A stretch of 64,000 nucleotides of DNA, taken from assembly GCA_015066045.1 (NCBI GenBank), contig SVPD01000001.1:62001-126000 (forward strand), read 5' to 3'. The DNA is from Oscillospiraceae bacterium (GTDB lineage: Bacteria; Bacillota; Clostridia; Oscillospirales; Acutalibacteraceae). The position numbers were made by a program, and so were the translations under genes. Below the pieces are notes generated by a model that made no database searches, was not told where the DNA came from, and saw only the letters and a list, made by a program, of their open reading frames with translations. Positions 5,955 through 41,067 of the stretch are shown here, one piece after another (positions within the stretch are counted from its first letter, which is position 1; the number at the start of each line of letters is the position of its first letter).

Positions 5955-5973
5955 TGTTTAAAGGAATAAAAAA

Positions 5974-6040
5974 GCAGACCTATGCAAAACGCCGACGTCA
6001 CATAAAGAAATATTTCCTTATGTGATATCGGCGAAGTTCT
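5974..6040. repeat. short hairpin repeat, small member of the MITE-like family
   Basis: Arms CGCCGA (5990-5995)/TCGGCG (6028-6033) and TCACATAA (5998-6005)/TTATGTGA (6018-6025) form a long hairpin around GAAATATTTC. The two arms match, separately and in inverted orientation, the two ends of the 293-bp element at 40421-40713: TGCAAAACGCCGAC-type and TTCGCCGAT..C.CATAAGG-type. On the minus strand, the hairpin plus later T-run could also terminate transcription after the upstream transferase gene. Confidence 0.7.
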
Positions 6041-6047
6041 GTTTATT

Positions 6048-7445
6048 TTATATCTTTTTCAAAAGCTCCTCGAAATCGTCAGCACTGGGGATGAGATGGT
6101 AATCGTCCTTGGGAAGGGGAGTGGCTTTTCTGAATCTGCAGTAGTCATCACCCATCGCCGTGTCGATAATTCTCTGTGTGGCATTTCCGTCGCAGGCACT
6201 CATAAATTTGTTTCTGAAATCTATAACCTCCTGCTTATCGAAGTTGTTTTCGATGTTTTTGATATAATCGATTATTTCTTCGTTGGTTGAGACTATCGGA
6301 CCGGGAGTAAGCTCGTCATAATCATAGTAGAAGCCTCTCCAGTCAAAGAAATTTTCCAGATCGTGTGCGAGGAAAATCATCGGTCTTTCGAAAAGGGAGT
6401 ATTCGAAAATCAGAGAGGAATAGTCTGAAATGCAGATATCACTTACACAGAGAAGTGATTCGATGCTCATATCATCCGTGAAGTCTACCGCAAAAGAGCC
6501 GACAAGCTCTTCGGGTATCTGAGGTCTTTTTCTTACCAGAGGATGATGCTTCATTATAACCACATATTCATCTCCCAGTGCCTCGTAAAGCATATTGAGG
6601 TCCAGAACATTGGGCGATTTAGCCTTGGCCACTCTGCCACGGAAGGTGGGGGCGTAAAGGATTACCTTTTTACCCTTTGCAGACGGGAAGCGCTCATAAA
6701 GAATATCAAAGGATTTACTGATGAATTCCTTATCGTAGAAAATGTCTGTACGGCTGCTGCCGAGAGCCTTAACCACACCGCTTTCGTGAGAATACTGCAT
6801 AGCCTCCTCATAGGCCCAGATAACCTCGGGGCTGCTGACGGTAACGTGGGTGTAGTTTCTGTTAAAGGGATATCTTTCCATATCCTTTCTTGATGCACCG
6901 AAAATAGCGTCGGCGGTGCTGAAGCCGAACTTTTTAAACGCACCGCAGCCGTGCCAAAGCTGAGTTATGACGGTCTCAGGTCTCGTAACGAATCTGCCGG
7001 TGACGTTTGTGGCTTCATCGAAGAAGACATACTTTGCCGTAGCGATGTCACGAATCATAGCCTTACATCTTTCGCGGTACTCTTTTCTGGTTACGAAGGT
7101 GTTTCTGAGGAAATGACAGTGAATATCGAAGTCTGTATTGGCATAAAGATTGTCGTACATAAGCTGGAAGCTGTTTGTAAGCTTCGGAAGTCTTATTTCT
7201 ACGAAAACTACCTTTTTTTCATCTACCGGAAGCTTAGAATACTTTTTATAAATCGAGGGATAGAGGTGAGCTATAACGTATTCTGTATAAATTCTGTTAT
7301 ATTTGCCTCTGAAAAATTTCCTTATTCTCTTTATGAAGCTTTTGGTTTTCTTTTTGATCAGCCTCTTTGTCTTCCTTATGTATTTAACAAAGAAAAGATA
7401 GACGGTATAAAGAAAAGTTTTCTGAAGGGCACTTTTAATTCCCAT
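6048..7445 (-). CDS. CDP-glycerol/CDP-ribitol phosphotransferase family protein (TagF/TarL-like), copy 1
   Basis: Predicted membrane-associated glycosyltransferase-like enzyme (465 aa) that transfers polyol phosphate from a CDP-polyol to a growing teichoic-acid-type chain. Family motifs: QLWHGCGAFKKFG near residue 165, MKHHPLVRKRP near 305, and ISDYSSLIFEY near 345. The N-terminus is very basic (KRLIKKKTKSF), which fits peripheral membrane binding. The track start is replaced by the ATG at 7445, because the upstream ATG touches the AAAGG site. It is a clear paralogue of the next gene. With tarI and tarJ nearby, ribitol phosphate is the more likely substrate, but glycerol phosphate cannot be excluded. 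Confidence 0.82.
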   Translation of the reverse strand: MGIKSALQKTFLYTVYLFFVKYIRKTKRLIKKKTKSFIKRIRKFFRGKYNRIYTEYVIAHLYPSIYKKYSKLPVDEKKVVFVEIRLPKLTNSFQLMYDNLYANTDFDIHCHFLRNTFVTRKEYRERCKAMIRDIATAKYVFFDEATNVTGRFVTRPETVITQLWHGCGAFKKFGFSTADAIFGASRKDMERYPFNRNYTHVTVSSPEVIWAYEEAMQYSHESGVVKALGSSRTDIFYDKEFISKSFDILYERFPSAKGKKVILYAPTFRGRVAKAKSPNVLDLNMLYEALGDEYVVIMKHHPLVRKRPQIPEELVGSFAVDFTDDMSIESLLCVSDICISDYSSLIFEYSLFERPMIFLAHDLENFFDWRGFYYDYDELTPGPIVSTNEEIIDYIKNIENNFDKQEVIDFRNKFMSACDGNATQRIIDTAMGDDYCRFRKATPLPKDDYHLIPSADDFEELLKKI

Positions 7446-7525
7446 ATAGAACATCCTTTCATATTAGGTTATGCGAAATACTCAGTATATTGTACATAAA
7501 AACCGCATTTTGTCAAGATTTAAAA

Positions 7526-23585: not shown

Positions 23586-23654
23586 ATCCGGATAAACTGA
23601 ATAGAATAATAATATCCTGCTTTGTTCGATAATTATGATAGTTATAACCCAACA

Positions 23655-23815
23655 CGTAACTAAACGGAGAGATGCTTTGTCAGCGGATTGCAGACCTCCC
23701 GCTTTCGGGCGGACGAAGGGAGCGTGAACCTGACTCGCTATCACCACCCTGCTTTTGAGCAGGTTATACACATCATTTCCGGCAGAGCGGGATATGTTAT
23801 GGCTCTTTTTGAGTC
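23655..23815 (+). ncRNA. candidate structured RNA upstream of tRNA-Leu (6S-like layout)
   Basis: No convincing ORF. A long-range helix pairs GCTTTGTC (23674-23681) with GGCAGAGC (23781-23788), 8 bp with two G-U and one extra wobble. GAGAG (23667-23671) can pair with CTCTT (23803-23807). Inside lie open purine/pyrimidine strands and a strong hairpin CCTGCT/AGCAGG (23748-23763). A closing stem, a central bubble and a small hairpin on the 3' strand resemble 6S RNA. A weak promoter (TTTGTT, TATAAC at 23643-23648) lies upstream. The 6S identity is a guess; a tRNA leader is the alternative. Confidence 0.35.
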
Positions 23816-23826
23816 TACATATTTTT

Positions 23827-23911
23827 GCGGGTATGGTGAAATTGGCATACACGCAAGATTTAGGTTCTTGTGTCGCAAGACGTGCAGGTTCGACCCCTGT
23901 TACCCGCACCA
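23827..23911 (+). tRNA. tRNA-Leu (UAG anticodon)
   Basis: 85-nt cloverleaf: acceptor GCGGGTA/TACCCGC, D-stem GTG/CAC, anticodon stem CAAGA/TCTTG with loop TTTAGGT (anticodon TAG), long class II variable arm TGTC-GCAA-GACG, T-arm with GGTTCGACC, and encoded CCA. It decodes CUA/CUG-type leucine codons. A terminator follows. Confidence 0.97.
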
Positions 23912-26605: not shown

Positions 26606-26682
26606 CGCGGAGTGGAGCAACCCGGTAGCTCGTCGGGCTCATAACCCGGAGGTTGCAGGTTCAAATCCTGTCTCCGCAACCA
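26606..26682 (+). tRNA. initiator tRNA-fMet (CAU anticodon)
   Basis: 77-nt cloverleaf CGCGGAG...CTCCGCA with encoded CCA. The unpaired C1-A72 end and the three G-C pairs of the anticodon stem (GGG CTCATAA CCC) are the initiator hallmarks. The T-loop is TTCAAAT. Confidence 0.97.
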
Positions 26683-40006: not shown

Positions 40007-40414
40007 ATGGTAATTCTTTCAGTAGATTACGGTGATGTGAGGACAGGCATTGCCGTCTGTGACAAGATGGAAATTTTAGCTTCTCCCGTGACTGTTATCA
40101 CGCAGTCCTATGAGCCTAAGCTGATTGCCGAAATAGAAAAAATTATCGGTCAGTATAAGCCCAAGCTTATAGTAGTCGGTCTTCCGAAAAATATGGACGG
40201 CTCGTGCGGAGAAAGAGCTGAAAAATGCAAAAGGTTTGCTTTAGCCTTGTCAGATAAAACCGGCATCAGAACACAGATGGTGGATGAAAGGCTGACTACC
40301 GTGTCGGCTCACAGAGCTCTTAATGTCACCAATGTAAGAGGAAGCAAAAGGAAAGAGGTAGTAGATGCCGTTTCAGCCGTTATGATACTGGAAAGCTATC
40401 TTGCCTCTAAATAA
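40007..40414 (+). CDS. ruvX: RuvX/YqgF putative Holliday junction resolvase
   Basis: 135-aa RNase H-fold nuclease. Motifs: SVDYGDVRTGIAV (first catalytic Asp), VVGLPKNMDGS near 65, DERLTT near 100, and VVDAVSAVMILE near 120. Family members take part in pre-16S rRNA processing and possibly Holliday-junction resolution. AAGGAG precedes the ATG. The MITE-like repeat begins 6 nt after the stop. Confidence 0.94.
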   Translation: MVILSVDYGDVRTGIAVCDKMEILASPVTVITQSYEPKLIAEIEKIIGQYKPKLIVVGLPKNMDGSCGERAEKCKRFALALSDKTGIRTQMVDERLTTVSAHRALNVTNVRGSKRKEVVDAVSAVMILESYLASK

Positions 40415-40420
40415 AGCTTT

Positions 40421-40713
40421 AAGGGACTGAAATTCGCCGATGCCCCATAAGGCAGTATTTGTTTCTCAAACAAAATTCCCTGTATTTTTGCGGGGAAGCC
40501 TCGCAAGGCGACAGCCTTGCTGCGTTTTGTGAAAGAAATTTTCACTTCTTACGAAACTGCGAAGCACTTTAAACTGCGAAATAGCTTTGCAAGAAAAGGC
40601 AGAAATCACCGATAATGCTGACGCATATCGGTGATTTTTAACGCATTATTGTGAAGTTATTTCACTGTTTAAAGAAATACTTCCTTATGAGGTGTCGGCG
40701 TTTGCAGTCCCTT
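40421..40713. mobile_element. MITE-like element, 293 bp with about 40-bp terminal inverted repeats
   Basis: The left end AAGGGACTGAAATTCGCCGA...CATAAGGCAGTATTT matches the reverse complement of the right end, AAGGGACTGCAAACGCCGAC...CATAAGGAAGTATTT, over about 40 bp. No ORF of note lies inside. Several internal hairpins are visible: GCAAGGC/GCCTTGC, GTGAAA/TTTCAC, and a 12-bp AAATCACCGATA/TATCGGTGATTT at about 40606-40640. The right end abuts the stop codon of the minus-strand TauE-half gene. A short relative lies at 5974-6040. No target-site duplication is obvious. Confidence 0.75.
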
Positions 40714-41067
40714 TTATTTTTTTGAAAGTAAATCACGTACTCCCATAAGAATGAGAAAACCGCCAAAGGTTTTTCTTAGGAGATTTCCGGGTATAAAATT
40801 AATAATTATATAGCCCGCCACAACCCCTATAAGACCGCATATAACAAAGGTCGTGGCTAATTTTTTATCAATAAGCTTTTCTTTTCTGTACCTCAGCACA
40901 GAGTAAAGGGCGCACGGAATAAAAAAGAACAGATTGATGCCCTGTGCTTCCTTTTGGCTGATATTCATAAACGAAGTAAGAAATATAATAAGGACCGAGC
41001 CTCCGCCGAAGCCCATAGAGCATAGCAGACCTGAAATAAAAGAGGCAAGCACCGTAAACAAATTCAT
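40714..41067 (-). CDS. half-size TauE/SafE-family membrane protein, second of a pair
   Basis: 117-aa protein with four hydrophobic helices. The motif SGLLCSMGFGGGSVLIIFLT near residue 13 is the repeat signature of TauE/SafE (DUF81) anion permeases. Full-length members are about 250 aa and carry two such repeats. This gene encodes one repeat only and follows its partner by 4 nt, so the two may form a heterodimeric permease for a sulfur-containing or organic anion. Its stop codon TAA touches the end of the 293-bp repeat, so the element may have replaced its 3' flank. Confidence 0.8.
   Translation of the reverse strand: MNLFTVLASFISGLLCSMGFGGGSVLIIFLTSFMNISQKEAQGINLFFFIPCALYSVLRYRKEKLIDKKLATTFVICGLIGVVAGYIIINFIPGNLLRKTFGGFLILMGVRDLLSKK

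Follow-up and report, generated by a model that had tools for sequence, protein, structure and literature searches.

The window, the whole 64,000-nucleotide stretch that was analysed (Oscillospiraceae bacterium, contig SVPD01000001.1, positions 62,001 to 126,000), contains a long and a short copy of a non-coding repeat, both of which lie directly 3´ of stop codons, as an earlier reading of the sequence alone had stated. The long copy follows yqgF/ruvX (40007–40414), whose terminator is formed by AAGGGACTG and CAGTCCCTT, and a convergent gene on the opposite strand ends at 40714. This copy is located within the loop of the yqgF/ruvX terminator hairpin, with TT/TT on either side. The terminator that holds the short copy belongs to a minus-strand gene (6048–7454), and the copy is bracketed by AA/AA (5988–5989 and 6034–6035). 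Elsewhere, the window carries a 6S RNA (Rfam; 23611–23797) and tRNAs at 23827–23908 and 26606–26679. The features of the two copies are summarized in Table 1.

Table 1. Positions of the repeat copies, their parts and their host terminators in the window.
Feature	Position	Strand	Remark
Long copy of the putative mobile repeat, left-type end first	40435–40700	+	266 bp
Left arm of the host (yqgF/ruvX) terminator, outside the element	40421–40429	+	AAGGGACTG; sequence differs from site to site
Right arm of the host terminator, followed by a T tract	40705–40713	+	CAGTCCCTT; outside the element
Left-hand TT of the 2-bp direct repeat	40433–40434		
Right-hand TT of the 2-bp direct repeat	40701–40702		
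Left end, forming the 5´ strand in the closing helix	40435–40460	+	
Right end, forming the 3´ strand in the closing helix	40675–40700	+	
Second arm, GTTTC...GAAAC, with a GCAAGGC/GCCTTGC hairpin	40461–40557	+	
Third arm, mini-hairpin	40558–40566	+	TGCGAAGCA
Fourth arm, CTTTAAA...TTTAAAG	40567–40674	+	
Bidirectional terminator-like hairpin at the tip of the fourth arm, with an A tract and a T tract	40603–40637		AAATCACCGATA...TATCGGTGATTT
Minimal copy, two ends overlapping	5990–6033		44 bp; flanks AA/AA
First host terminator arm at the short copy	5966–5978		
Second host terminator arm at the short copy	6037–6049		

The sequence-only reading had described a 293-bp element with inverted ends at 40421–40713. 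The inverted ends are present, but the extent has to be corrected: the unit is 266 bp long in the window, compared with 273–276 bp as usual in the family, and the outer 14 bp are part of the host terminator, whose arms differ from site to site and which is free of the element at the orthologous position in two relatives. Homology among the aligned copies starts at CGCCGAY and stops at RTCGGCG; the true ends of the element are CGCCGAY...AAGGMAGYATTT. Beyond these ends each copy has its own sequence, yet the two flanks of most copies complement each other and carry A and T tracts, which identifies them as arms of intrinsic terminators that differ from copy to copy. The hairpin near 5974–6040 does carry the two ends of the long copy, as had been proposed. 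Its description as an ends-only derivative is right in that the copy is reduced to its ends, but the span was drawn too wide, since the outer arms of this hairpin are again those of the host terminator.

The genome of the window (2.24 Mb in 68 contigs) was searched with the long copy, which revealed about 20 long relatives at 83–95% identity. Many of them are cut at contig ends, as is expected of repeats, which break assemblies. A search of the same genome with the end pattern yielded additional short and solo forms. The subfamily regarded as youngest has GAGTGG ends in this genome. Within the genus, 14 of 34 genomes contain matches. In a family-wide sample of 398 genomes from 135 genera, the strict end pattern was found in 10 genomes of 7 genera, one of which is a chance match in a coding region, and a divergent lineage was matched in 34 genomes of 16 genera. 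The named GTDB carriers are metagenome assemblies of gut Clostridia/Oscillospiraceae, largely from ruminant or deer hindgut. A lineage from human stool has an identical layout with quite different ends (GGCTGAGCGTTCATAAGG), and its copy in L321 resides inside a terminator with AA/AA flanks. Four human-gut 'phage' records also match the repeat; a glutamate dehydrogenase gene lies beside the copy in one of them, and all four were therefore taken for bacterial contamination. The terminator of the glutamate dehydrogenase gene holds a solo end in the genome of the window (L073, C8:22670) and a full divergent copy in L321 (human-gut record MT835515.1). Searches of viral contigs gave 0, 0, 1 and 0 matches, the single one being unrelated, and no plasmid matched the repeat. 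We found no paper in the open-licence literature that describes this repeat family.

The terminator setting was quantified on 46 distinct insertion sites from many species. The mean flank pairing is 25.2, which none of 10,000 shuffles reached, and exchanging left and right flanks among sites lowers it to 14.4, although several of the 46 sites come from related species and are thus not fully independent. Pairing exceeds the 95% control level at 32 of these sites. When the flanks are rejoined with one dinucleotide removed, their median folding energy is -15.4 kcal/mol, compared with -5.0 kcal/mol for mismatched flanks, and 35 of the 46 pass the 5% control limit. A 2-bp direct repeat, nearly always TT/TT or AA/AA, brackets the element at 35 of 46 sites (16.9 expected; 0 of 10,000 shuffles); matches drop to 10 sites at 3 bp and to none at 4 bp. 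Eleven sites are without the 2-bp repeat, and about a quarter are without a clear host hairpin. The 2-bp A/T repeat is likely a target duplication on the evidence of these counts, which fall short of proof, since many terminator loops consist of A or T runs, which could mimic one. A reading frame of 80 codons or more runs towards the element and stops within 250 bp of it at 43 of the 46 sites. Where orientation is unambiguous, 10 elements are co-oriented with the host gene and 13 are opposed; the absence of a bias suggests that selection acts on the element and not on its use by the host. The genes beside the copies, judged by eye, are ordinary housekeeping genes with no recurrent transposase.

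To view the insertion locus of the window in relatives, yqgF orthologues were collected across the genus. In G009 and G005, which are about 80% identical and share the neighbouring genes, a plain hairpin with a T tract occupies the position of the long copy and the element is absent; the empty sites for which the sequence-only reading had suggested looking thus exist, as orthologues in other species rather than within the same species. An apparently decayed right end is located in the loop of the orthologous terminator of G014. The intact hairpins at the orthologous site indicate that the element was gained in, or lost from, a pre-existing terminator. At the terminator of a gene ending in RAVDYAK, probably rny, the repeat is present in opposite orientations in G009 (L125) and G015 (L126).

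Structural alignments of 24 and then 31 diverse copies revealed that the element folds into a closed four-way junction, built from one helix that joins the two ends and from three further arms, with zero unpaired bases at the junction (borders at alignment columns 26/27, 136/137, 145/146 and 266/267). Paired cells amount to 97.1%, compared with 42.6–49.3% after the partners are slid. Two-sided changes occur in 222 cells, compared with 59.5 after shuffling, and are seen in 35 of 78 pairs; close copies are included in the alignment, and these shuffle counts are therefore not strict probabilities. Hairpin-templated repair can be an alternative source of covariation in inverted repeats. Within the closing helix, variation is greatest in the outer 13–14 bases of the ends, yet these remain paired in each copy, with an end match of 12.4 of 14 within a copy and 9.3 between copies. 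Such variable tips are the opposite of ordinary transposase ends, whose tips are fixed. Because the ends covary, the 'two distinguishable ends' of the earlier reading are better described as the two arms of a single helix, whereas its suggestion of a structured RNA agrees with the conserved, covarying fold of the whole element. On the + strand G-U pairs outnumber A-C by 164 to 35, and by 21 to 1 in the terminator arm alone, which indicates that the left-to-right strand is the structured one. The 12-bp internal stem that had been pointed out (ATCACCGATA) was found at the tip of the fourth arm; together with the placement of copies in host terminators, this bidirectional terminator-like hairpin is consistent with the terminator role that had been considered. 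The third arm reads GCGAAGC, or a close variant of it, in nearly all aligned copies. As DNA, GCGAAGC is known to form a mini-hairpin of extraordinary stability, and its presence would fit a stage as single-stranded DNA.

Reduced forms are found alongside the full unit. End-to-end forms of 44–63 bp, in which the three arms are missing, reside in terminators with a 2-bp repeat (the short copy of the window, L032, L106 and L269). Solo ends are present at L073 and L108 and are explained by deletion between short homologies. The internal hairpin AAAAATCACCGATAATGCTGACGCATATCGGTGATTTTT is also found alone 3´ of genes (L021, L022, L087 and L099), where its isolation suggests that hosts have perhaps adopted it as a terminator. 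At L112 (G016, from position 1501), an IS3-like element with an ORF starting MPKGIPNKRYTGEFKQKVIETM is apparently inserted in the loop of the internal terminator hairpin, and thus appears to be a hairpin-targeting IS within a hairpin-targeting repeat.

Since the structure is strongly conserved, the repeat might be regarded as an ordinary UTR or regulatory RNA that stays in place. However, the upstream genes are unrelated, the site is empty in G009 and G005, a genome holds about 20 similar copies and no Rfam 15 family matches the repeat above the gathering score. The probability of this account is close to nil, and it was rejected as a whole on the dispersed copies and the empty orthologous sites. 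The sequence-only reading had itself named two outcomes that would speak against a mobile family, namely matches at only the two loci and in-place conservation like that of a UTR; instead, genomic matches are many and copies occupy unrelated sites. The repeat shares with MITEs that it is short, non-coding and dispersed and has terminal inverted repeats. The proposal of a MITE-like family with long and short copies is thus borne out as regards dispersal and the roughly 20 long copies, but a transposase with matching ends, for which that reading had suggested a search, was not found in the families and loci searched. End-pattern searches of the genome, the genus, the family and GTDB contigs for autonomous copies returned only non-coding copies or chance matches in genes, and the fetched loci with matching ends contained no parent element or transposase. 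An origin as a MITE of an IS1182-family (IS1272-like) element, a type known to insert at terminator stem-loops, is very unlikely. IS1272 and TnSha1 do target hairpins, several of them confirmed terminators, with no sequence preference, but IS1272 removes the stem-loop wholly or partly and leaves no target duplication (PMC4923244, PMC5678879), whereas the present sites retain the host stem and loop and show a 2-bp repeat. PF13751 (IS1182-type) has no match in the genome of the window or in the strong carriers of the genus; of the 34 genus genomes, 8 have such transposases, almost all of these 8 are repeat-free, and the transposase ends do not match. Membership in the IS1182/IS1272 group, in which the stem-loop is replaced without duplication, was rejected on the kept host stems, the 2-bp repeats and the empty orthologues.

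An IS30-like or other DDE transposase that makes a 2-bp duplication at a palindromic target would account for the 2-bp repeats at hairpin centres, as IS30 has 2-bp direct repeats and a nearly palindromic hot spot (PMC9333248). We consider such a mover improbable. In 18 carriers, HTH_38 revealed no recognisable IS30 transposase: all matches but one were below the family cut-off; the exception is a 209-codon frame, and the other matches are weak and in short frames. DDE_3 (IS630) was found in 0 of 13 genomes and DDE_Tnp_1 in 1 of 13, as a single ORF in G050 with ends that do not match. In addition, the tips of the ends vary freely, whereas a DDE end is expected to have fixed tips. In G000, G001, G002, G005, G009, G012, G015 and G016, DDE_Tnp_1 and DDE_3 are both at zero and the repeat is abundant. 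Membership in IS630/Tc1, for which a TA duplication and DDE_3 are the marks, was rejected, as AA or TT dominate and DDE_3 is absent from all 13 genomes. Alternatively, the folded + strand might move in the form of RNA or single-stranded DNA and enter, as a hairpin, another hairpin by reverse transcription or strand capture. The fold conserved on one strand with G-U over A-C, the freely covarying outer helix, the unbiased orientation to host genes and the hairpin nature of the targets all point that way, but the 44–63 bp copies are found in terminators with a 2-bp repeat even though they have lost three arms, and we regard this route as unlikely. Against a mover of the IS110/bridge-RNA type stands the finding that the target sites share no sequence.

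We conclude that this is very probably a non-autonomous mobile repeat, defined by shape, which inserts in the hairpin loops of intrinsic terminators and is flanked by the copies of a 2-bp A/T repeat. The best reading is a new family of such structure-defined repeats with terminators as their targets. The family itself, its sites, the empty orthologous site, the 2-bp repeats and the covarying fold are all established from the sequences. In the mechanism that we propose, an enzyme acting in trans would bind the hairpin-like ends, with their conserved inner AAGGAAGTATTT and paired but free outer 14 bp, and would join the element into looped or cruciform terminator DNA with a 2-bp stagger. The fold predicted for the window copy leaves the host hairpin intact, with its arms stacked outside the closing helix of the element. 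The internal terminator of the element would back up that of the host and preserve termination. Since the host stem is retained and the element brings a terminator of its own, insertion should barely disturb transcription termination.

Tentatively, we extend this reading to the possibility, itself somewhat doubtful, that nucleic-acid shape alone governs both the recognition of the element and the choice of its targets, so that a folded four-way-junction strand would be placed hairpin-into-hairpin by an undescribed class of enzyme. Harm would be self-limited, because the host terminator is kept and another is added. Intrinsic terminators are safe landing sites and are numerous in bacterial genomes, and a shape-guided repeat that spares its targets and carries a spare terminator would be a clear example of a genomic parasite evolved for little harm. 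The mobilising enzyme, if found, could serve as a structure-directed, sequence-independent integration tool. The repeat also accounts for puzzling hairpins at gene ends and for many contig breaks in genomes of gut Clostridia.

Several known systems share individual features with the repeat. IS1272 and TnSha1, of the IS1182 family in staphylococci, resemble it in targeting stem-loops, terminators included, regardless of sequence (PMC4923244, PMC5678879), but they encode a transposase, take out some or all of the stem-loop and make no duplication, whereas the repeat contains no gene, keeps the host stem and shows a 2-bp repeat. IS30 shares the 2-bp duplication and the near-palindromic type of target (PMC9333248); the ends of the present repeat are unrelated in kind and variable at their tips, and no IS30-type gene was recognised in the tested carriers. 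REP palindromes are likewise hairpin-forming repeats, and IS elements use them as insertion targets (PMC1525189). The present repeat differs from REP/RAYT systems in having no GTAG-type tags, a longer unit and terminators as targets. The bcr1–bcr18 repeats of the Bacillus cereus group are comparable orphans: they are 100–400 bp long, non-coding and dispersed, with features of mobile DNA, have no known mobilising gene and are thought to move in a recombination-like manner (PMC6542083). By their description in the portion of that paper available to us, rather than by sequence, they differ in carrying TTTAT motifs, and terminator-loop targeting is not described there. Among the small interspersed repeats of Firmicutes, the pneumococcal SPRITE, BOX and RUP belong to the same general kind; SPRITE is terminator-like, and SPRITE and BOX are the nearest pneumococcal analogues (PMC10969869). 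Set apart by the text of that account, the present repeat is distinguished by its insertion in host-terminator loops and its closed four-way fold, which are not described there.
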